From: Pseudomonas sp. P8_229
GTDB lineage: Bacteria; Pseudomonadota; Gammaproteobacteria; Pseudomonadales; Pseudomonadaceae
Direction: 5' to 3'
Assembly (NCBI RefSeq): GCF_034008635.1
Contig: NZ_CP125378.1
Coordinates: 920,001 to 984,000, forward strand
DNA: 64,000 nucleotides
The position numbers and the translations under genes are program-made. Below, in pieces: positions 6,736 to 32,840 of this stretch. Every line of letters starts with the position of its first letter. The first letter of the stretch is position 1. The notes beneath the pieces were generated by a model. The model saw only the letters and a list, made by a program, of their open reading frames with translations, had not been told where the DNA came from and did not search any database.

Positions 6736-7881
6736 ATGGATGTTTTCTGGTTCCTGCCGACCCACGGCGACGGCCACTACCTGGGCACCACGCAAGGCGC
6801 GCGCCCGGTCACCCTGAATTATCTGAAACAAGTGGCGCAAGCCGCCGACAGCCTCGGCTACCACGGCGTGCTGATTCCCACCGGACGCTCCTGCGAAGAC
6901 TCGTGGGTGATCGCCTCGGCGCTGGTGCCGTTGACCGAGCGCCTGCGTTATCTGGTGGCGATCCGCCCGGGAATCATCTCGCCAACGGTGTCGGCACGCA
7001 TGGCGGCGACCCTCGATCGACTGTCCAACGGCCGCTTGCTGATCAACGTGGTGACCGGCGGCGACCCCGATGAAAACCGTGGCGACGGCAGCTTCCTCAG
7101 CCACAGCGAACGCTACGAAGTCACCGACGAATTCCTCAAGATCTGGCGCCGGGTGTTGCAAGGCGAGTCTGTGGATTTCGAGGGTAAACACCTGAAAGTG
7201 CAGAACGCCAAAGCCTTGTATCCGCCGGTGCAGAAACCGTATCCGCCGCTGTATTTCGGCGGTTCCTCCGACGCGGCGCATGACCTGGCTGCCGAACAAG
7301 TCGACGTGTACCTGACCTGGGGCGAACCACCCGCCGCTGTGGCCGAAAAACTTGCCGATGTTCGCGAACGCGCCGCACGGCATGGACGCAAAGTGAAATT
7401 CGGTATTCGTCTGCACGTGATCGTCCGCGAGACCGCCGAAGAGGCCTGGAAAGCTGCGGACAAACTGATCGAGCACATCAGCGACGAAACCATCGAGGCC
7501 GCGCAGAAGTCCTTCTCGCGTTTCGACTCCGAAGGCCAGCGGCGCATGGCGGCATTGCACGATGGGCGTCGCGACAACCTGCAAATCGCCCCCAACCTGT
7601 GGGCCGGTGTCGGCCTGGTACGCGGCGGTGCCGGCACCGCGCTGGTGGGCGATCCGCAGCAAGTGGCGGCGCGCATCAAGGAATACGCGGATCTCGGCAT
7701 CGAGAGCTTCATCTTTTCCGGTTATCCGCATCTGGAAGAAGCTTACCGCTTTGCCGAACTGGTGTTCCCGCTGCTGCCGGAACCGTACGCGAGCCTGGCC
7801 GGACGCGGCGTGACCAACCTCACCGGGCCGTTTGGCGAAATGATTTCCAACGATGTGTTGCCCAACCAATCCAAGGCTTGA
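6736..7881 (+). CDS. msuD: FMNH2-dependent methanesulfonate monooxygenase MsuD
   Basis: A 381-residue bacterial-luciferase-like TIM-barrel enzyme of the SsuD/MsuD family. It splits methanesulfonate (or other alkanesulfonates) to sulfite and an aldehyde using FMNH2 and oxygen. [13 protein letters not shown] at the N-terminus, [11 protein letters not shown], and the lid-region serine-rich [12 protein letters not shown] are characteristic. AAGGAG stands at ideal spacing upstream. The MsuD rather than SsuD assignment comes from gene order (msuE before, msuC and sfnR after) and the absence of ssuA/C transport genes here. Confidence 0.92.
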
Positions 7882-7885
7882 AGCC

Positions 7886-7989
7886 GATCCCCTTGTGGGA
7901 GCGAGCCTGCTCGCGAAAGCGGTGTGTCTGCGGCGGTGATGTCGACTGTGCTGACCTCATCGCGAGCAGGCTCACTCCTACAGGGGATC
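7886..7989. repeat. REPIN between msuD and msuC
   Basis: Two inverted REP units begin and end with GATCCCC/GGGGATC: GTGGGAGCGAGCCTGCTCGC on the left and its near complement on the right, around a spacer of about 45 bp. It fills the only gap inside the msu operon, so the transcript must contain a large stem-loop that could affect msuC expression or mRNA decay. Confidence 0.85.
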
Positions 7990-8014
7990 GAGTCGATTTG
8001 ATGAGGAACACCGT

Positions 8015-9202
8015 GTGACCGCCAAACCACAAAGTACTTTGATATCCCCCTTGCAGACCGCCCGCCAGCTAGCCGCCGAATTCGCGCTCACCGCCGTCGA
8101 GCGCGACGAGCGCGGTGGCACGCCGAAGGCCGAGCGCGATGCCCTGCGCGACAGCGGCCTGCTGGGCCTGAGCATCCCAACGCGCTACGGCGGCCTCGGC
8201 GCGCGCTGGAGCGAAACCCTGCAGATCGTGCGCGAGTTCGCCAAGGTCGACAGTTCCATCGCCCACGTCTTCGGTTTTCATCACCTGATGCTCGCCACCG
8301 TGCGCCTGTTCTCGCGCCCGGAACAATGGCAGCCGTGGTTCGAACAAACCGCACGGCAGAACTGGTTCTGGGGCAACGCGCTCAACCCGCTCGACATCCG
8401 CACCGTGGTCAAGGACTGCGGCGGCTGGCGCGAATTTTCCGGCAAGAAGAGTTTCTGCTCCGGCGCCAGCGACTCGCAGATGCTGATCGCCTCGGCGGTG
8501 GACGAAAGCGTCGGCGGCAAATTGTTGATCGCGGCGATCCCCAGTGGGCGCAGCGGCATCACCCTGCACGATGACTGGAACAACATCGGCCAGCGCCAGA
8601 CCGACAGTGGCAGCGCCACGTTCGAACGGGTGCGCGTCGAAGAATCCGAGCTGCTGCTCGATCCCGGCCCGTTGAGCACACCGTTCGCCTGCCTGCGTCC
8701 GCTGATCGCGCAACTGACCTTCACCCACATGTTTCTCGGCATCGCCGAAGGTGCCTTTGAAGAAGCCCGGCAATACACGCTGAGCGAGACCCGGCTGTGG
8801 CACAAATCCGCGGCCCGCGATGTGCGCGAAGACCCGTACGTGCTCGCGCATTACGGCGAGTTCTGGGTCGCGCTGGAAGGCATTCGCCTGCTGGTCGAAC
8901 GGGCCGCGGCGCTGCTCGACGACGCCTGGGCCAAAGGCCCGAATCTGAGCGCTGAAGAACGCGGGCATCTGGCCACGGCGATTGCCACGGCCAAGGTCGC
9001 CGCCAGTCGTCAGGGCCTGGAGATTTGCAGCCGCTTGTTCGAAGTCACCGGCGCGCGCTCGACCCACGCCTCGCTGCGCCTCGATCGGTACTGGCGCAAC
9101 CTGCGCACGCAGACCCTACACGACCCGCTCGATTACAAACTCCATGAGCTGGGCGACTGGGCGCTGAATCAGGCGCTGCCGGTGCCGACGTTCTATTCCT
9201 GA
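8015..9202 (+). CDS. msuC: Methanesulfinate monooxygenase MsuC (acyl-CoA dehydrogenase fold)
   Basis: A 395-residue flavin enzyme with the acyl-CoA dehydrogenase fold, of the DszC/SfnB/MsuC branch that works as an FMNH2-dependent oxygenase. In Pseudomonas, MsuC oxidises methanesulfinate to methanesulfonate, the MsuD substrate. Visible motifs are GLSIPTRYGGLGARW, the central NPLDIRTVVKDCGGWREFSG and C-terminal ATAIATAKVAASRQGLEICS. It starts with GTG at 8015, preceded by GAGGAACACC. A REPIN separates it from msuD. Confidence 0.88.
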   Translation: MTAKPQSTLISPLQTARQLAAEFALTAVERDERGGTPKAERDALRDSGLLGLSIPTRYGGLGARWSETLQIVREFAKVDSSIAHVFGFHHLMLATVRLFSRPEQWQPWFEQTARQNWFWGNALNPLDIRTVVKDCGGWREFSGKKSFCSGASDSQMLIASAVDESVGGKLLIAAIPSGRSGITLHDDWNNIGQRQTDSGSATFERVRVEESELLLDPGPLSTPFACLRPLIAQLTFTHMFLGIAEGAFEEARQYTLSETRLWHKSAARDVREDPYVLAHYGEFWVALEGIRLLVERAAALLDDAWAKGPNLSAEERGHLATAIATAKVAASRQGLEICSRLFEVTGARSTHASLRLDRYWRNLRTQTLHDPLDYKLHELGDWALNQALPVPTFYS

Positions 9203-9226
9203 TCTTGCCTTTAATGGAGCGAGCCC

Positions 9227-10330
9227 ATGCAACTGCTGACCCTTCCACCCTCACCCGCCCTGGCGACGTCGATCCGCGCCACCGCGCAGGTCTTCGAAGA
9301 CCCGAAATCCCAGGCCCTGCTCGCGCATCTGCAACAGGTCGCGCCGAGCGAAGCCAGCGTGCTGATCATCGGCGAGACCGGCACCGGCAAGGAGTTGGTG
9401 GCGCGGCACATCCACAATCTGAGTAACCGCCGCCATCGGCCGTTCGTCGCGGTCAACTGCGGCGCGTTCTCCGAATCGCTGGTGGAAGCCGAACTGTTCG
9501 GCCATGAAAAAGGCGCTTTCACCGGCGCGCTCAGCGCCAAGGCCGGCTGGTTCGAAGAAGCGGACGGCGGCACCTTGTTCCTCGACGAAATCGGTGATTT
9601 GCCGATGGCGATTCAGGTCAAGTTGCTGCGGGTGTTGCAGGAGCGCGAAGTGGTGCGCCTGGGCTCGCGCAAGAGCATTTCCATCGATGTGCGAGTGCTG
9701 GCCGCGACCAACGTGCAACTGGAGAAAGCCATCAATGCCGGGAATTTCCGCGAAGACCTGTTCTATCGCCTGAACGTGGTCAATCTGGAACTCAGCCCGT
9801 TGCGCGACCGCCCCGGCGATATCCTGCCGCTGACCCGGCATTTCATCGAGGCCTACAGCCAGCGCCTGGGTTACGGGCGGGTCAGCATCAGCCCCGGCGC
9901 CGAGCACAAACTGCGCAGCTACAGTTGGCCGGGCAACATCCGTGAACTGGAAAACGTCATTCATCACACCCTGCTGATCTGCCGCAACGGCGTGATCGAG
10001 CGCGATGATTTGCGCCTGTCGAACCTGCGCATCGAGCGCCCGGACGATCAGCAGGCGAGCGCCGACGATTCACCGGAAGCGCTACTGGAACGGGCCTTTC
10101 AAAAACTCTTCGAACAACAGGCCGGCGCCCTCCACGAAAAGGTCGAAGATGCCCTGCTGCGCGCCGCGTACCGTTTCTGCCATTACAACCAGGTGCACAC
10201 CGCCGCCCTGCTCGGACTGAGCCGCAACGTCACCCGTACGCGGCTGATCAAGATCGGCGAGCTAGCGGTGAACAAGCGGCGACTCACGGAGAACCTGCAA
10301 GGCGAACGCCTGATTCAGTTGTCGATCTAG
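9227..10330 (+). CDS. sfnR: Sigma-54-dependent activator SfnR
   Basis: A 367-residue enhancer-binding protein with a short N-terminus, an AAA+ domain and a C-terminal Fis-type helix-turn-helix. Walker A is GETGTGKE (about residue 47), the sigma-54 contact loop GAFTGA is in [12 protein letters not shown], and Walker B is [12 protein letters not shown]. There is no receiver or PAS sensory domain, so activity is probably set by its amount, as for SfnR proteins of dimethyl-sulfone and methanesulfonate use. Its own operon has a -24/-12 promoter. Its stop shares a CTAG with the convergent gene. Confidence 0.9.
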
Positions 10331-24630: not shown

Positions 24631-24654
24631 ACGCTTAAGCGGGGCGAGGATTTA
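24631..24654 (-). promoter_or_regulatory. PvdS promoter of pvdH
   Basis: Minus strand CTAAATCC (TAAAT at 24650-24654) then 16 bases and CGT (24631-24633). This is an exact iron-starvation box. The predicted start near 24621 leaves a leader of about 90 nt before pvdH. Confidence 0.82.
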
Positions 24655-25369: not shown

Positions 25370-26695
25370 TTACATGGACTGCAGCGGCATGGTCAGCTCG
25401 ACGCGCAGCCCATCCGGGCGGCTGTCGAAATGCAGAGTGCAGGCGCAACGCTGGACGATGGCCTGGACAATCGCCAGGCCGAGGCCGCAGCCGGTGCTCT
25501 GGCCGTTGCGCCAGAAGCGTTGGGTCAGGTGCTGCAGATCTTCTGCGGCAATCCCCGGGCCATGGTCGCGCACCACAAAATGTGCGCGCTGACCGACGGT
25601 TTCCAGACTCAGCTCCACCTCAGCGTCCGCCGGGGTATGGCGCAGGGCGTTGTCGAGCAGATTGCGCAGCGCGGCAATCGACAGCACCGCCGGCATTTGC
25701 ACCGGCGCGCTGGACAGCGGCGTCGGCAATTGCAGTTTGATGCGCTGGCGCTCGCCACCGGCCGCATCCTGCATCGCCAGTTTCGCCACCTGCTCGGCGC
25801 TGCACTGCACGCCATCGTCAAACGACAGGCTGCCCTCGACCCGCGCCAGCAACAACAGTTGCTCCAACGTGCGGTGCATGCGGTCGGCGCCCTCTTCGGC
25901 CCGGGCCAGCGACTGATCGCGGGCACTGCCCTCGGTCATGCGCGCCACTTGCAGGTGGGTCTTGATCGCCGTCAGCGGGCTGCGCAGTTCATGGGCGGCG
26001 TCACCGGTCAGCCGGCGTTCACGTTCGATGGTCTTGCCGATGCGCTGAAACAACTGGTTCTGGGTGTCGAGCAGCGGTTTCAGTTCGCTGGGAAACGACT
26101 GCAGTTGCAGCGGCTCCAGCGAGTCGGCGTTACGCCGCATCAAGGCTTCGCGCAGCCGATTGAGCGGTGCCAGGCCCTGACCGATGCCCAGCCACAACAG
26201 GCACAGACAACCGAGCAACGCCACGCCGACCGGCACCGAGGCCGCCAGCAGAATCGACATGTTCAGGGCTTCGCGTTCGATCTGCCGGTCGGCGGTGGTG
26301 ATGCGCACGTCACCGCGCGCGAGGGTGAAACTGCGCCACGGTGCGCCGTCGATCATTTGGTCGTGGAAGCCCATTTTCTCGGCTTCCAGGGTTTGCTCGG
26401 GACTGCTGTGGCTGCGGGCCAGAATCTCCCCGCGCAACGAACTGACCTGACAGGCCATGCCACCGGGAATGTTCAACTGTTCGGCACTGAAATGCGTGCC
26501 TTCGCCCTTGCTCGGCAACGCCGGCAGTTGCTCGAGCAACCCGGCGACCATGCGCGCCGACGCCACCAGCCGCTGGTCGAGGGAAAACATCATCTGATTG
26601 CGCAAGTCGCTGAGCATCCAGGCCGCAGCCAAAGCCCAGATCAGGGCGAACGCGGCGCCGAGGGTCAGACTCAGGCGCAGACGCAGACTCATCAC
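25370..26695 (-). CDS. Two-component sensor histidine kinase (QseC/PmrB-like)
   Basis: A 441-residue membrane sensor kinase. One transmembrane helix is at residues about 7-28 and a second near 155-175, enclosing a periplasmic sensor with one cysteine (GGMACQVSS). The phosphorylated His is in DAAHELRSPLTAIK, and the ATPase has NLLDNALRHT, VRDHGPGIA and GCGLGLAIVQ. It overlaps the upstream response regulator gene by four bases. The location beside dsbD-tlpA-dsbG matches P. aeruginosa PA2480-PA2476, so a signal related to periplasmic thiol redox or metal is plausible. Confidence 0.92.
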   Translation of the reverse strand: MMSLRLRLSLTLGAAFALIWALAAAWMLSDLRNQMMFSLDQRLVASARMVAGLLEQLPALPSKGEGTHFSAEQLNIPGGMACQVSSLRGEILARSHSSPEQTLEAEKMGFHDQMIDGAPWRSFTLARGDVRITTADRQIEREALNMSILLAASVPVGVALLGCLCLLWLGIGQGLAPLNRLREALMRRNADSLEPLQLQSFPSELKPLLDTQNQLFQRIGKTIERERRLTGDAAHELRSPLTAIKTHLQVARMTEGSARDQSLARAEEGADRMHRTLEQLLLLARVEGSLSFDDGVQCSAEQVAKLAMQDAAGGERQRIKLQLPTPLSSAPVQMPAVLSIAALRNLLDNALRHTPADAEVELSLETVGQRAHFVVRDHGPGIAAEDLQHLTQRFWRNGQSTGCGLGLAIVQAIVQRCACTLHFDSRPDGLRVELTMPLQSM

Positions 26696-27372
26696 TTCTG
26701 TGGCTCTCCACCATCGGCCGGCCCGAGGCGATAACCCAGACCGCGCACGGTTTCAACAATTCCCTTGCCGAGCTTGCTGCGCAGGTGATGGATATGCACG
26801 TTCAGGGCGTTGCTCTCCAGTTCGTCATTGAAGCCATAGACGCTGTCTTTCAATTGCTCGGTGGACAGCACCCGGCCACGGTTGTGCAGCAGCGCCTGCA
26901 ACAACGATTGCTCGCGCCGCGACAGGTCCACCGGTTGCCCGGCGAGCATCGTTTCACGGCTGCTCGGATCGTAGGTCAGTGCGCCGTGTTCGATCAGGTT
27001 GACGCTGCGTCCGGCAACCCGGCGCAACAAGGTTTGCAGACGAGCGAACAGTTCGCGCAGATCGAACGGTTTGAGCAGGTAATCGTCAGCCCCCGCCTGC
27101 AAACCATCGACCCGGTCAGTCACCGAGTCCCGCGCGGTCAGAATCAGCACCGGAATTTCCAGGCCCTGCTGCCGTAACTGTTGCAGCAACTTGAGGCCAT
27201 CTTCGTCGGGCAGGCCAAGATCGAGCACCATCACGTCGAATTCGGCGACCTTGAGCATCGCCCGCGCTTTCGAAGCCGTATTGACGTGTTCGACGGTCAG
27301 GCCTTGAGCGGTGAGGCCAGCGACGATGCCACTGGCGATCAACTCATCGTCTTCGCAAACCAGTACGTGCAT
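26692..27372 (-). CDS. OmpR-family response regulator
   Basis: A 226-residue regulator: receiver domain (CEDDELIASG acidic pocket, phospho-Asp in VMVLDLGLPDEDG, Lys in LLKPFD) and C-terminal winged helix (LSRREQSLLQALL, VHIHHLRSKLGKG, VRGLGYRLG). The start at 27372 has GGAG six bases upstream; the frame is open further but has no start signal. It pairs with the kinase downstream. A direct repeat GGTTAATC-N3-GGTTAATC before dsbD, 2 kb away, is a likely binding site, now separated from it by the hemopexin-like genes. Confidence 0.93.
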   Translation of the reverse strand: MHVLVCEDDELIASGIVAGLTAQGLTVEHVNTASKARAMLKVAEFDVMVLDLGLPDEDGLKLLQQLRQQGLEIPVLILTARDSVTDRVDGLQAGADDYLLKPFDLRELFARLQTLLRRVAGRSVNLIEHGALTYDPSSRETMLAGQPVDLSRREQSLLQALLHNRGRVLSTEQLKDSVYGFNDELESNALNVHIHHLRSKLGKGIVETVRGLGYRLGPADGGEPQK

Positions 27373-27781
27373 GTGAGCTCCATGAGCAAAAACGCGATTC
27401 AAGCAACCGAAGATTAAGCCGCAATTATGCCAAGTGTACCAACTCACGAGAAGCGCGATGCGACGCTGCACACGGTAGCAGCCTGCCAGGCAAATAGCCC
27501 GGGCGCCTGCCCGCCTGCCAGTCTTATTAACAATAGCGACGACGCAACTTTCAAATTGAAACACACCGGGCATATTAAAAAACAAACTTAACAACTAGCA
27601 TCAACCCGACCAAACAATCAAAGGCAAACAAAAACCAACAGACCGACAATCAAACCAGAGAACAAAAACACAGCAACTCATTAATACTTCACCCCATCGC
27701 ATCGCGTGCACCCTGAACAAACCAGGTCGCACGCGATCAGCAACAACTCTTTCTCAAAACAACCATTCAAAGGATTGAACA
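27373..27781. other. AT-rich gap with promoter region of the hemopexin-like genes
   Basis: 409 bases without a gene. From about 27540 the plus strand becomes A- and C-rich with few T and G (for example AAAGGCAAACAAAAACCAAC near 27620), unlike the GC-rich surroundings. It holds the regulator's promoter on the left and a strong inverted repeat at 27701-27737. I see no small gene in it. Confidence 0.6.
27701..27737. promoter_or_regulatory. 37-bp inverted repeat upstream of hemopexin-like gene 1
   Basis: Left arm 27701-27715 (ATCGCGTGCACCCTG) pairs with right arm 27723-27737 (CAGGTCGCACGCGAT) at 13 of 15 positions around AACAAAC. It ends 44 bp before the start codon and has no T-run. It could be an operator or a leader hairpin controlling the pair. 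Confidence 0.5.
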
Positions 27782-28477
27782 ATGTCTCGCTTAGGAAATG
27801 TCGTCACGGTTGACTGGCGCTCTGGCAAAGACCAGATCTACTTCTTCTTCAAGGACTACAACATTTATTCACGCTTCAGCATCCCTGACAATGAAGTACC
27901 CAGAAACTACCCGCGGGAGGTATCCGGTAACTGGAGCAACTTCCATAACGCCTACGATCTGCGTTTTGGCTTCACCACCACTGGATTCGACACTGAAGAA
28001 TTTGACGGTGACATTTTGTGGCTGTTCCATTACCACGAGGATCGATTCACTCCCTGCGTCAGCAAATATGATCAGGACAATGATCACTGCATCAGCACTG
28101 TTCCAGTTAGTGAATCACGATGGAAACAACTGACGCCCTACTTCGACCGGATCGTTGCCGGCACATGGTGGCAAACCATTCCGGGGCGAGCGCACTTGTT
28201 CCGCTTCCTGCTGGACAATGGAAAGGCGCTCAAGCTTGATTTCGGCTATGAAACACTTATCGAAGAACCCATTGATGATGAAACATGGCCAGGGTTGGCC
28301 AAGTATCAAGACCGGATCATGACCGCTGCGCAAAACGATCGTACTTTTGCCGACAGTTACTGGTATCTGTTTTTGAATAAGGATGAATATATCCGCTACA
28401 ACATCCAGGAAAACCGTGTTGTATCCGAACCGATAAAAATCGATAACGAAAGCTGGCCCGGACTGTTGCGCTATTGA
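27782..28477 (+). CDS. Hemopexin-like repeat protein 1
   Basis: A 231-residue protein with no signal peptide or membrane segment. It consists of four aromatic-rich units resembling hemopexin blades, starting near residues 8 (TVDWRSGKDQIYFFF), 75 (GDILWLFHYHED), 125 (RAHLFRFLLDNGKALKL) and 185 (YWYLFLNKDEYIRY). The units close with W-x-x-L/F-type turns (NWSNF, RWKQL, TWPGL, SWPGLL). One four-bladed propeller is therefore likely. Similar free-standing proteins include Photorhabdus photopexins. AAGGA precedes the ATG. Base composition is lower in GC than its neighbours. The ligand is unknown. Confidence 0.75.
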   Translation: MSRLGNVVTVDWRSGKDQIYFFFKDYNIYSRFSIPDNEVPRNYPREVSGNWSNFHNAYDLRFGFTTTGFDTEEFDGDILWLFHYHEDRFTPCVSKYDQDNDHCISTVPVSESRWKQLTPYFDRIVAGTWWQTIPGRAHLFRFLLDNGKALKLDFGYETLIEEPIDDETWPGLAKYQDRIMTAAQNDRTFADSYWYLFLNKDEYIRYNIQENRVVSEPIKIDNESWPGLLRY

Positions 28478-28659
28478 AAATTCGCGACCTGAAACACACA
28501 GACGATCAGGTTCAAGCCACCACCATGCCAGGACCACAACCGACTTGACAGAGGTACCCACGCTGTCCCACACAAACTAGAAACAGCTAACAAATTACAA
28601 AAAAGCAGACATAAAACACACGACTTTTACAAACACAAAACAAACATTCAAAAAACCGA

Positions 28660-28667
28660 AAAAACAA
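28660..28667 (+). promoter_or_regulatory. Possible Hfq/Crc (AANAANAA) site before hemopexin-like gene 2
   Basis: AAAAACAA fits the catabolite-repression motif AANAANAA and lies 17 bases before the start codon, next to the ribosome site GGAAG. The whole 28565-28683 stretch is A-rich, so a chance match is possible. Confidence 0.3.
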
Positions 28668-28683
28668 TGGAAGAATCGTATAA

Positions 28684-29367
28684 ATGAGCATTACAAAAAA
28701 CTTCGTTGCTGTTGACTGGCGCACCGGCCACGACCGCATTTATTTCTTTTTCCCCGAGAAAAACAACTATTCCCGTTTCGACTTCGAGGATGACAAAGTA
28801 CTTTCCGGTTTCCCCAAGCCGGTGGATGGCAAATGGGCAGGCTTCGACAAGACTGCTGCCGACTTGCGCTTTGGCTTTACCACGACGAGCGCCAGTTGGA
28901 ACGGCGGTGTCGACACGCTCTGGCTGTTCTACGACGAAGGAGCAACGCCATCCGTTTGTGAGTTCAGCCAACAAGCCGACAAGGCGCTCTCCAAAACCCC
29001 CATCGCAAAATCAAAGTGGGAAAAACTATTGCCTTACTACTACAAAATAGTTGGCGTAATGTGGAGTGAAAACACTGCACAAAGGGAGAGCTACTGGTTA
29101 TTGTTGAATGACGGAAATTACCTGATCTACGAAACATACTCCAACACCTTGGAAGTACTACCTCTAAAAGGTTCGTCCTGGGCACCACTGGAAGAATATA
29201 AAGACAAAATGATGACGGCCGTCACCAACGACTACCCGACACTTGATACTTACTTTTACGTTTTCCTGAACGACAACCGCTACCTGCGTTATGAGCAGGG
29301 CGCGAAAAAAGTATTTGGCCCGTATACAATCTCCGAATCCACCTGGCCCGGGCTGCTGAAGGACTGA
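28684..29367 (+). CDS. Hemopexin-like repeat protein 2
   Basis: A 227-residue paralogue of the preceding gene, sharing VDWR-x-G-x-D-x-IYFFF, NYSRF and DLRFGFTTT in the first blade and ESTWPGLL at the end. Again four blades fill the whole protein and no secretion signal is present. One cysteine remains (PSVCEFSQ) where copy 1 has two. A 206-bp A-rich gap separates the two genes, so the second may have its own promoter. It is inferred to bind a hydrophobic ligand or metal, or to be a structural partner of copy 1; nothing in the sequence proves heme binding. Confidence 0.75.
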   Translation: MSITKNFVAVDWRTGHDRIYFFFPEKNNYSRFDFEDDKVLSGFPKPVDGKWAGFDKTAADLRFGFTTTSASWNGGVDTLWLFYDEGATPSVCEFSQQADKALSKTPIAKSKWEKLLPYYYKIVGVMWSENTAQRESYWLLLNDGNYLIYETYSNTLEVLPLKGSSWAPLEEYKDKMMTAVTNDYPTLDTYFYVFLNDNRYLRYEQGAKKVFGPYTISESTWPGLLKD

Positions 29368-29425: not shown

Positions 29426-29444
29426 GGTTAATCATCGGTTAATC
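29426..29444 (+). promoter_or_regulatory. Direct repeat GGTTAATC, candidate response-regulator site before dsbD
   Basis: GGTTAATC occurs at 29426-29433 and 29437-29444, 11 bp apart, one helical turn, the typical tandem half-site arrangement for OmpR-family regulators (PmrA/QseB-like TTAA boxes). It lies 48 bp before dsbD. Confidence 0.55.
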
Positions 29445-29491: not shown

Positions 29492-31225
29492 ATGCGTCAT
29501 TTTTTTCTTTTCTTTGCACTGTTGATCTCCGGCCTGGCACAGGCGGGAAATAATCCATTCGAGACCAAACCGGAGTTTTTGCCGGTCGACAAAGCATTCG
29601 TGCTCACCTCCGAACGCCTGGAGTCCGGGGAAACCCAGCTGTTCTGGCAAATCACCGACGGCTACTACCTGTATCAGAAACGCCTGAAATTCGACGGTCT
29701 GAAGGCTGAACAACAGCCGGTTCTGCCCGAGGGCGAGTCCCACAGTGACGAATTCTTCGGTGAACAACCGGTATACCGCCAGGGGCTGGAGGTGAAAGTC
29801 CCGGCCTCGGCCAGCGGTCAGATCAAGGTCAGTTACCAGGGCTGCGCCGATGCTGGCTTGTGCTATCCGCCACAAACCCGGGTCATCGATCTGGGTGGCA
29901 AAGCGACGCCGTCAAGCAGCGCTGAAGCGCCGGACCAAGCCCTGGCCAGCGGTCTTGAGCAACGCGCGCTGGGCTGGAGCCTGCTGGTGTTCTTCGGCCT
30001 GGGCCTGCTGCTGGCGTTTACTCCATGTTCACTGCCGATGCTACCGATTCTGGCGGGGATGATTGTCGGCAGTGGTGCCACGCCACGCCGTGGTTTCGCT
30101 CTGGCCAGCAGCTATGTGATCTGCATGGCGCTGGTGTATGCGGCGATGGGGGTGATCGCGTCTCTGCTCGGCGCCAACTTGCAGGCATGGCTGCAAAATC
30201 CATGGCTGCTCGGTGCGTTTGCGGCGGTGTTCGTGGTGCTGGCGTTGCCAATGTTCGGTTTCTTCGAATTGCAATTGCCGGTGGCCTTGCGAGATCGCCT
30301 CGAACACGCCTCGCGCAGCCGCAACGGCGGCAGCCTGATCGGTGCCGGGGTGCTCGGCGCGCTGTCGGGGCTGCTGGTCGGCCCGTGCATGACCGCGCCG
30401 CTGGCCGGCGCCTTGCTGTACATCGCCCAGAGCGGCAATGCGTTGCACGGCGGGCTGATTCTGTTCGCGCTGGGCATCGGCATTGGAGTGCCGTTGTTAC
30501 TGCTGGTGACCGTCGGCAACCGCTTCCTGCCAAAACCCGGGGCGTGGATGAACCTGCTCAAGGGCATCTTCGGCTTCCTGTTCCTGGCGACAGCGCTGCT
30601 GATGTTGCGTCCGGTACTGGACTCCTCGCTGTGGCTGGGCCTGTGCGGCGCGCTGCTGCTGATTGCGGCGTTCTGCGCCTGGAAGCAATCGGAAGGCTTC
30701 GGGCGCGTCGCCCAGGTGTTCGGCGCCAGTTCTTTGTTGCTCGGTCTGTGGGGCAGCCTGCTGCTGATCGGTGCCGCCGGTGGCGGTGATGACCCTTATC
30801 AGCCGCTGCAGGTGTACAGCGCCGGCCGTGTTGCCAGCGCTACGCCAAGCGGGCATGACGCATTCACCACGATCAAGAACCCGGCAGCGCTGCAACGTGA
30901 ACTGGATACCGCCAGGGCCAGGGGTCAGTGGGTATTGCTCGATTACTACGCCGACTGGTGCGTGTCGTGCAAAGTCATGGAGAAACAAGTGTTCGGCAAG
31001 GACAAGATCATGCAGGCACTCGGCGATGTGCGTCTGCTGCGCCTTGATGTCACCGCCGACAATGCCGCCAGCCGCGAGCTGCTCGGCCGCTACAAAGTCC
31101 CGGGGCCACCGAGTTTTGTCTGGATCGGCACTGACGGCGAAGAGCGGCGTAGCCAGCGCATCACCGGTGAGGTTGATGCCGATACGTTCCTGCAACGCTG
31201 GACCACCACCCGAGACGCCAATTAA
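29492..31225 (+). CDS. dsbD: Thiol:disulfide interchange protein DsbD
   Basis: A 577-residue transmembrane reductase that carries electrons from cytoplasmic thioredoxin to periplasmic thiol proteins. A signal peptide (to about residue 18, GLAQA) is followed by DsbD-alpha with QGCADAGLCYPP, eight or so transmembrane helices with FTPCSLPMLPI and GPCMTAPLAG cysteines, and a C-terminal thioredoxin domain with YADWCVSCKVME. It is the first gene of dsbD-tlpA-dsbG, matching P. aeruginosa dsbD2 (PA2478). Expected partners are the two products encoded just downstream. Confidence 0.93.
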   Translation: MRHFFLFFALLISGLAQAGNNPFETKPEFLPVDKAFVLTSERLESGETQLFWQITDGYYLYQKRLKFDGLKAEQQPVLPEGESHSDEFFGEQPVYRQGLEVKVPASASGQIKVSYQGCADAGLCYPPQTRVIDLGGKATPSSSAEAPDQALASGLEQRALGWSLLVFFGLGLLLAFTPCSLPMLPILAGMIVGSGATPRRGFALASSYVICMALVYAAMGVIASLLGANLQAWLQNPWLLGAFAAVFVVLALPMFGFFELQLPVALRDRLEHASRSRNGGSLIGAGVLGALSGLLVGPCMTAPLAGALLYIAQSGNALHGGLILFALGIGIGVPLLLLVTVGNRFLPKPGAWMNLLKGIFGFLFLATALLMLRPVLDSSLWLGLCGALLLIAAFCAWKQSEGFGRVAQVFGASSLLLGLWGSLLLIGAAGGGDDPYQPLQVYSAGRVASATPSGHDAFTTIKNPAALQRELDTARARGQWVLLDYYADWCVSCKVMEKQVFGKDKIMQALGDVRLLRLDVTADNAASRELLGRYKVPGPPSFVWIGTDGEERRSQRITGEVDADTFLQRWTTTRDAN

Positions 31226-32094
31226 TGCTGACGTTTACCCTCGGCACCTTTGCCATCGCGCTTAACCACCTGCTGCTGATCAGTGCCCTGGCGCTGGCGA
31301 CCTTTGTCGGCTGGCGGGTGGCCAAGCGTGGCGGCGATAACCCCGAGTCGGCGCTGTTCAGTCTGTTTCTGCTCGGCATGCTCGCGGCACGCGTGGCGTT
31401 TGTCGCGCTGTATTGGGGCCACTATCGCAACGATCCGTGGCAGATCATCGACCTGCGCGATGGCGGTTTTCTCGCCTGGCCGGGGGTGATCGTGCTGTTG
31501 CTGGCGGCGTTGTATCGTGGCTGGCGCCGCCCGGGCCTGCGCCGGCCACTGGGTTTTGGCGTGGCCAGCGGTGTGCTGTTCTGGCTGCTGGCGACCCTGT
31601 CGTTGAATATCTACGAACAAGGCACGCGCCTGCCGGAAATCACCCTGCGCAACGCCGCCGGGGAGACCATCCAGCTCAGCGATTATCAGGGCGGTCCGCT
31701 GGTGATCAACCTGTGGGCGACCTGGTGCCCACCGTGCCGGCGCGAAATGCCGGTGCTGGAAAACGCCCAGCAACAACGCCCGGACCTGACCTTTCTGTTC
31801 GTCAATCAGGCCGAGAGCATGCAAAGCGTTGCCACCTTTCTCGAAACCCAGGGCCTGAGCCTGAACAACGTACTGTTCGACCGCAGCGGCCGACTCGGTC
31901 AGGCCGTGGGCTCCATGGCGTTGCCGACTACGCTGTTCTATAGCCCTGACGGACGACTGTTGACCAGCCATCTGGGCGAGCTGTCGAACGCCAGTCTGGC
32001 CCGCGCCCTGGAAAACTTCGACAGTCCGAATCCATCCGCCGCACCGGCCACCTCTGCAAGGAAACTGCCATGCCCCGCCTCCGCCACCTGCTGA
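31225..32094 (+). CDS. Membrane-anchored TlpA-like thiol reductase
   Basis: A 289-residue fusion: about four N-terminal hydrophobic helices (residues 1-130, including LGTFAIALNHLLLISALALA and SALFSLFLLGMLAARV) resembling a prolipoprotein-transferase-like membrane part, then a thioredoxin domain with the active site NLWATWCPPCRREMP. The start overlaps the dsbD stop (TAATG). Electrons probably come from DsbD. The target may be DsbG or a metalloprotein. The C-terminal 25 bases overlap dsbG. Confidence 0.85.
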   Translation: MLTFTLGTFAIALNHLLLISALALATFVGWRVAKRGGDNPESALFSLFLLGMLAARVAFVALYWGHYRNDPWQIIDLRDGGFLAWPGVIVLLLAALYRGWRRPGLRRPLGFGVASGVLFWLLATLSLNIYEQGTRLPEITLRNAAGETIQLSDYQGGPLVINLWATWCPPCRREMPVLENAQQQRPDLTFLFVNQAESMQSVATFLETQGLSLNNVLFDRSGRLGQAVGSMALPTTLFYSPDGRLLTSHLGELSNASLARALENFDSPNPSAAPATSARKLPCPASATC

Positions 32095-32840
32095 CGCTGA
32101 CTCTGGGCACTGCCCTGCTGCACCTGCCGTCGGTACAGGCCGCCGAAGAATTGCCCGCCGCGATCAAGCAGATCGAAGCCAAGGGCGCAAAAATCGTCGG
32201 CCAGTTCGACGCCCCGGACGGCTTGCGCGGTTACGCGGCGCAGTACCAGAACCGTGGCATGGCGTTGTACCTGACGCCGGACGGCCAACACGTGTTGCTG
32301 GGCAATCTGTATGACGCCGACGGCAAGGACTTGAGCAGCGAGCCGTTGCAGAAACTGGTTTACGCACCGATGACCAAGGAAATCTGGGGCAAGTTCGAAG
32401 CCAGCAACTGGATTCAGGACGGCAACAAGGATGCACCGCGCACCGTGTACCTGTTCAGCGATCCGAATTGCCCGTACTGCAACATGTTCTGGGAGCAGGC
32501 GCGGCCGTGGGTCAAGGCCGGCAAGGTGCAGTTGCGGCACATCATGGTCGGGATCATCCGCGAAGACAGTCCGGCGAAATCCGCCGCGCTGCTGGCAGCG
32601 AAGGATCCGGCCAAAGCCCTGGAAGAACACGAGAAGGCTGGCAAGGAAAGTTCGCTCAAGCCATTGAAGAACATTCCACCGGCCGTGCAGGCCAAACTGG
32701 CGGCCAACATGCAGTTGATGGAAGACCTGGAGTTGCAGGCGACTCCGGCGATTTTCTACATGGACGACAAGGGTGAGCTGCAACAGCAGCAAGGCGCGCC
32801 GTCGCCGGAGAAGCTGGCGAAGATTCTTGGGCCTAAGTAA
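32070..32840 (+). CDS. dsbG: Periplasmic disulfide isomerase/chaperone DsbG
   Basis: A 256-residue secreted protein with signal peptide (LHLPSVQA-AEEL) and a DsbC/DsbG-type dimerisation domain followed by a thioredoxin fold with FSDPNCPYCNMFW. CPYC and the cis-Pro in ELQATPAIFYM match DsbG. DsbG keeps single cysteines of periplasmic proteins reduced with electrons from DsbD. The start lies inside the end of the TlpA gene with AAGGAAA upstream, so it is the last cistron of this redox operon. Confidence 0.9.
   Translation: MPRLRHLLTLTLGTALLHLPSVQAAEELPAAIKQIEAKGAKIVGQFDAPDGLRGYAAQYQNRGMALYLTPDGQHVLLGNLYDADGKDLSSEPLQKLVYAPMTKEIWGKFEASNWIQDGNKDAPRTVYLFSDPNCPYCNMFWEQARPWVKAGKVQLRHIMVGIIREDSPAKSAALLAAKDPAKALEEHEKAGKESSLKPLKNIPPAVQAKLAANMQLMEDLELQATPAIFYMDDKGELQQQQGAPSPEKLAKILGPK

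Follow-up and report, generated by a model that had tools for sequence, protein, structure and literature searches.

Predicted hemopexin-fold propellers at an exchangeable site between a response regulator gene and dsbD in Pseudomonas

Animals and plants have many well-known hemopexin propellers, bacteria few, and a Pseudomonas locus that appears to encode two of them side by side raises the question of how such proteins came to be there and what they do. The locus lies in a window of 64,000 nt from Pseudomonas sp. P8_229 (NZ_CP125378.1), from whose first letter all window coordinates are counted. An initial annotation had placed two ORFs of 231 and 227 aa, here HPX1 and HPX2, between pyoverdine and thiol-redox genes, and both the ORFs and these neighbors are present as it described, with two genes of the wider neighborhood that, judged by sequence, are probably pvdH and pvdL. 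A better description of the setting, however, is a cassette site at the junction of a response regulator gene with dsbD, which is common to all 37 sampled carriers. The features of the locus are as follows.

25370..26695, minus strand: sensor histidine kinase (2CSK_N, HisKA, HATPase_c), from the ORF and family search
26692..27372, minus strand: OmpR-type response regulator (receiver and Trans_reg_C), one flank of the cassette, from family search, with the start codon placed by orthologues
27373..27447, no strand assigned: element A, the carrier type of regulator-proximal leader, with GATTAAGCCGCAATTATG at 27412-27429, from junction comparison
27448..27781, plus strand: HPX1 leader, C-rich and G-poor, with a strong stem-loop at 27699-27741, from composition and folding
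27782..28477, plus strand: HPX1, 231 aa, predicted single hemopexin-fold propeller, from the ORF, AlphaFold2 model and family tree
28478..28683, plus strand: HPX1-HPX2 spacer and leader, G-poor, from composition
28684..29367, plus strand: HPX2, 227 aa, predicted single hemopexin-fold propeller, from the ORF, AlphaFold2 model and family tree
29426..29444, plus strand: element B, a tandem GGTTAATC repeat with an 11-bp period, putative response-regulator box of dsbD
29492..31225, plus strand: dsbD-like gene, the other flank of the cassette, from the ORF and family search
31225..32094, plus strand: TlpA-like thioredoxin-fold protein with an LGT-like N-terminal part, from the ORF and family search
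32070..32840, plus strand: dsbG/dsbC-like gene, from the ORF and family search

Predicted fold, kinship and distribution

AlphaFold2 models of HPX1 and HPX2, folded from alignments that took in 17 family sequences, have pLDDT values of 87-88, and both predict the single-domain, four-bladed hemopexin-type propeller that the initial annotation had proposed rather than some other fold. When the models were compared with known structures using VIA-align, hemopexin-fold entries scored far above unrelated ones, and the legume albumins CP4, LS24, and DC25 came out on top, at 17-19% identity in the structural alignment and with Z scores within 1 of those of MMP-14 and vitronectin; a Foldseek search with the HPX2 model in plain order placed no hemopexins in its top 50. 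The Pfam search that had been proposed as a check was less direct, in that HPX2 reached 10.2 bits against a PF00045 cut-off of 21.3 bits, HPX1 was unmatched, and the best E-value among 17 family members was 0.0011. Kinship emerged at the level of profiles instead: an hhalign comparison of the HPX family profile with the Pfam-positive bacterial hemopexin propeller of the G303 protein gave a probability of 99.2 and an E-value of 3.5e-19 over 201 columns spanning four blades, and a PDB profile search with the family had MMP-14 as its top match (E 4.7e-4), where a PDB sequence search with HPX1 as lone query was unmatched. The predicted four-bladed topology, together with sequence kinship to accepted hemopexin repeats, places both proteins in the hemopexin-fold superfamily, as a Pseudomonas subfamily of a known fold that lies outside the reach of the Pfam model. 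Neither sequence leaves space for a signal peptide, as had been noted before. A paper on such a Pseudomonas hemopexin-fold protein was not found among open-licence full texts.

The subfamily is uncommon among the genomes searched. A match to hpx was present in 38 of the 298 Pseudomonas genomes searched, and there are 37 carriers, the P8_229 genome included, once G245 is removed because its protein is longer, different, and encoded at another genomic place. Across the phylum, the HPX family profile hit 2 of 398 genomes, each from Pseudomonas, and PF00045 matched 1 of 369 gammaproteobacterial genomes, which bears out the earlier statement that single-domain hemopexin-like proteins are uncommon in bacteria. 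In one carrier (G151, locus L063), hpx is split over two overlapping frames, so the gene is either broken or mis-sequenced there, and this locus was left out of the hpx tree and the pair counts. The relatives found beyond Pseudomonas, in G303 and on the Pseudoalteromonas plasmid pNC201, are enzyme-hemopexin fusions, and proteins of this kind were located at three loci.

L058 (G245), 7037-8713: phosphodiesterase-like protein with a C-terminal hemopexin propeller
L075 (G303), 7665-9428: phosphodiesterase-like protein with a C-terminal hemopexin propeller
L129, 4798-6603: phosphodiesterase-like protein with a C-terminal hemopexin propeller

The fusions of G245, G303, and pNC201 differ from HPX in carrying a fused enzyme-like domain and in occupying other genomic places; those of G245 and G303 have Pfam-positive hemopexin repeats, and those of G303 and pNC201 appear by eye to have a signal peptide. 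In L058 the fusion gene is followed by a 308-aa ORF (8905-9831) that looks by eye like an enzyme-domain-only relative. Carriage of hpx by phages or plasmids was considered and rejected: neither viral contigs (193 pattern stretches) nor a phage search with HPX1 yielded a confirmed relative, and a plasmid search returned two Pseudoalteromonas records, of which the one inspected encodes the enzyme-fusion type. Neither HPX1 nor HPX2 matched a PADLOC (anti-phage defence) or PHROGs (phage) family at E<=0.1.

A cassette at the regulator-dsbD junction

The sampled carriers, together with the named P. koreensis and P. parakoreensis records, provide 39 carrier loci, and in all 39 hpx occupies the same place, divergent from the OmpR-type regulator and kinase genes and upstream of dsbD, the TlpA-like gene, and dsbG. 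The closed form of the junction, in which the regulator faces dsbD with no hpx between them, was seen in 20 of 20 non-carriers examined, these having been chosen from 260 mainly by closeness of dsbD and not drawn at random; in the 18 whose gap was measured, it spans 151-212 bp. Element B stands directly before dsbD in 18 of 18 non-carrier junctions compared and is kept in 15 of 16 carrier junctions, L035 among them with a single-base change. The stretch compared for the remaining carrier junction, that of L045, starts within element B, and the element there overlaps the stop codon of hpx. Its likeness to sites of the OmpR family makes element B probably a box of the adjacent regulator, and since hpx follows the regulator-proximal leader and precedes element B, dsbD's own control would not be displaced by it. 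Two loci have peculiarities of their own: L048 (G053) has an extra ORF of about 315 aa between its second hpx and dsbD, which by eye is Sel1-repeat-like, and the hpx-adjacent dsbD orthologue of L044 (G034) seems to have a broken frame in its assembly (a 413-aa frame), for which reason L044 was left out of the identity-pair and omega comparisons and gives aberrant dsbD values where it was retained.

The regulator-proximal 75 bp fall into two types, with 38 of 39 carriers, and likewise 19 of 20 non-carriers, closer to the rest of their own group than to the other group. The exceptions are L052, whose two scores are near-equal, and L121, in which a carrier-type leader without hpx is apparently a loss scar. 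The opposite event may be preserved in L034, where an intact empty junction that agrees with L111 at 152 of 153 bases lies downstream of hpx, as expected if the cassette had been inserted close to the regulator start codon. Exchange between species is also visible. At fourfold sites L041 and L042 differ by 3% in hpx, 31% in dsbD, and 43% in the regulator gene, with a common tract that begins near the start of the regulator gene and ends roughly 500 bp inside dsbD, and we read their hpx genes, from these divergences, as the product of one recent cross-species transfer; L070 and L071 diverge by 8% in dsbD and by 52% in hpx. Among 777 pairs drawn from different genomes, protein identity has a median of 0.50 for HPX, 0.86 for DsbD, and 0.95 for the regulator, and the identities of HPX and DsbD are weakly correlated (Spearman 0.14, the 777 pairs being non-independent). 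Mapped on a tree of kinase and regulator (59 rows), hpx presence requires at least 14 state changes, 12 of them forced by starred branches, and as shuffled labels gave a mean of 16.8 changes, with 39 of 500 shuffles as low as 14, presence is weakly clustered on this tree, for which the non-carriers had been chosen. Across the 39 loci, hpx has a G+C content of 45-54% and dsbD one of 60-66%. The regulator leader and hpx thus move as a cassette by recombination in conserved flanks. The leaders of non-carriers (L106-L125) have two GATTA-type half-sites, of which most carriers compared keep one, a difference that might alter the regulator's own control.

The two copies in the window had been described as tandem paralogues. 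They are indeed adjacent members of one family, but they are not recent local duplicates, since a tree of 41 family sequences places them in different well-supported clades, HPX1 joining L065_h1 and L048_h1 at a support of 99, and HPX2 joining first the copies of P. koreensis and P. parakoreensis (99) and then L034 (98); recent tandem duplication was rejected on this ground. Double copies occur in 3 of the 37 carriers, namely P8_229, G053, and G105, and the double copies of L038 and of L048 are likewise non-sisters, with the reservation that long branches make the tree places of L034_h1 and L038_h2 unsure. The window therefore holds two old, different hpx alleles next to each other, and comparison with the relatives L032 and L033, which have the HPX2 type only, and with the hpx-free relative L106 suggests that HPX1 was added next to a resident HPX2.

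Selection, conserved residues and leaders

HPX is under purifying selection, with a median omega of 0.119 (19 pairs with dS of 0.1-1), compared with 0.089 for DsbD (507 pairs) and 0.036 for the regulator (546 pairs). The low value means that the large protein divergence reflects old, exchanged alleles and not positive selection, for which there is no support, and because the HPX value is only slightly above that of DsbD and far below 1, there is no sign of a simple arms race. Conservation is concentrated on the inner strands (mean 0.83) compared with the outer strands (0.48), and the residues that never vary across 41 sequences include D11, W12, R13, D17, and D183, whereas neither the 17-sequence nor the 41-sequence alignment has an invariant His. 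The strand order suggests that conserved polar residues are gathered at one mouth of the central channel, though the invariant residues may be structural. At four positions where G, T, Q, and R prevail in the family, HPX2 has V125, M126, T181, and Y184, as do its relatives in P. koreensis and P. parakoreensis, and HPX1 agrees with the majority. Residue C92 is kept in 90% of the 41 sequences and is Ser in HPX1.

The leaders were compared for signs of control. The best Fur match in the HPX1 leader, 11/19, is at chance level (shuffle mean 10.98), the carrier leaders L060 and L062 reach 13/19, and a PvdS-like site is absent from the window leader and from the carriers' leaders; the same scan, which used consensus patterns for Fur and PvdS, picked up control sites elsewhere in the window, one PvdS-like at 24654, just ahead of pvdH, and others Fur-like near 47.24 kb. 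Control of hpx by iron or PvdS is thus unsupported in the window leader. The median of the maximal C-G excess is 0.22 in 41 hpx leaders against 0.09 in 67 control leaders, the controls being non-independent because they come from the same loci, and one of them, at 0.46, exceeding all others. Such C-rich, G-poor leaders could fit Rho-dependent attenuation, which we offer as a lead from base composition. The stem-loop at 27699-27741 has a z of -6.2, and nothing like it was seen by eye in 15 other leaders compared; Rfam gave no RNA match at E<=1, and no sigma-70 consensus promoter was found where 1.7 were expected in shuffles.

Ligand binding and its alternatives

The closest comparators are the legume albumin-2 proteins or seed hemopexins (CP4, 3OYO; LS24, 3LP9; DC25, 6IX1; CAL, 3V6N and 3S18), plant proteins that are likewise not known to carry a signal peptide and, like HPX, are stand-alone single propellers, although they are seed proteins whereas HPX is an exchangeable bacterial cassette. 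Vertebrate hemopexin-domain proteins such as MMPs, vitronectin, and serum hemopexin differ in being secreted and mostly multidomain; serum hemopexin holds heme between two propellers via conserved His ligands, where HPX has one propeller and no His that is invariant in either alignment. The comparison suggested initially was with the photopexins of Photorhabdus, and it holds insofar as these too are bacterial hemopexin-like proteins, but by their published description PpxA, PpxB, and Plu1645 combine a PA-IIL-type domain with one or two HX domains (PMC2422844), an architecture unlike that of HPX with its one propeller per protein. In domain layout HPX is closer to the single-domain legume albumins than to the photopexins. 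The promoter of the photopexin-like gene Plu1645 is described as induced 10.1-fold by insect homogenate (PMC2422844).

Our preferred, still tentative, reading is that HPX is a soluble propeller that would bind a ligand and be of use in some niches, with ligand binding, site of action, and advantage all suggested by sequence and models. A small molecule or a glycan would sit at one end of the central channel of each propeller, next to conserved residues that terminate the inner strands, while the outer strands vary, and since the HPX2 clade departs from the consensus at several such positions, HPX1 and HPX2 should differ in ligand. Hints come from related proteins: DC25, a propeller of this fold, binds a porphyrin (PMC6934871), the Plu1645 promoter responds to insect homogenate, PF00045 appears in a list of eCIS-associated putative effectors directed against eukaryotes (PMC8213781), and the chickpea albumin structure entries have hemagglutination in their title. 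Because the proteins have neither a signal peptide nor an evident secretion partner, they would act in the cytosol or after release by cell lysis, as do cytosolic defence lectins and the legume albumin-2 proteins. The pattern of gain, loss, and swapping suggests a benefit tied to niche or neighbors and not to housekeeping redox or iron supply. Among the genes between and beside the junctions compared, few of which were searched against families, no evident toxin, lectin, or secretion gene was seen.

The alternative that survives best, possible though unlikely in our judgment, is a cytosolic stress protein that buffers redox state, polyamines, or small molecules in the manner of legume albumin-2 and helps under the stresses sensed by the adjacent two-component system. 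The nearest structures are legume albumins, of which DC25 is described as active as a peroxidase and LS24 as spermine-bound (PMC6934871), C92 is widely kept, and the neighboring genes serve thiol redox; however, the reactive Cys21 of DC25 has no counterpart in HPX by motif reading, HPX1 itself has Ser at position 92, HPX lacks the signal that would bring it to the periplasm, where the Dsb proteins reside, and the regulator-Dsb locus exists without hpx in every non-carrier examined (20 of 20).

The constancy of the site may reflect a link in function with the regulator or with the Dsb genes, and on that basis HPX might be an accessory part of their system, with the adjacent response regulator controlling hpx and hpx modulating the regulator or the Dsb proteins. 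We consider this improbable: the single junction across all 39 carrier loci and the distinct regulator leader that travels with hpx in 38 of them speak for it, but physical linkage and recombination suffice to explain both without function, element B remains beside dsbD, the locus is whole without hpx in the same 20 non-carriers, and the compartments differ. A role as an immunity or antidote protein in bacterial competition, with alleles stacked and swapped to neutralise the toxins of rivals, would account for cytosolic, patchily distributed proteins with old exchanged alleles, low G+C, and non-sister double copies in 3 of 37 carriers, yet we consider it improbable too, as no partner toxin is seen at the hpx site, PADLOC gave no family, and the inner channel residues are invariant where immunity proteins would usually vary at the contact site. 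Heme or iron handling is very improbable despite the hemopexin fold, the pyoverdine neighborhood, and the described binding by DC25 of a heme analogue with a KD of 1.21 uM (PMC6934871), given the chance-level Fur match and missing PvdS-like site of the window leader (13/19 for Fur in L060 and L062 notwithstanding), the lack of an invariant His and of a signal peptide, and the scarcity of HemS (0/37 carriers versus 2/20 non-carriers) and HasA (1/37 versus 1/20). Iron or heme function and membership of the Dsb operon gain no support.

The ligand-binding reading can be extended to a single-locus recognition system, which we regard as speculative and rather unlikely in this full form. A lineage would carry none, one, or two of many old propeller alleles with different channel-mouth pockets, each swapped together with its own regulator leader via the conserved flanks, so that a swap would change both the host, grazer, or competitor ligand that is recognised and the expression of the adjacent regulator, while the rest of the genome stays untouched.

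The HPX proteins form a compact bacterial subfamily that is missed by the standard model and is present in about one-eighth of the sampled Pseudomonas species (37/298). Its locus shows naturally empty sites, an apparent scar of loss, double copies that are not sisters, and one transfer of recent date. Matched carriers and non-carriers exist for experiments, and the question of the ligand is approachable with proteins that are small and soluble. If the propellers recognise biotic partners, the junction would be a swappable recognition locus, and if they are redox or polyamine proteins, they would help to explain their poorly understood plant relatives.
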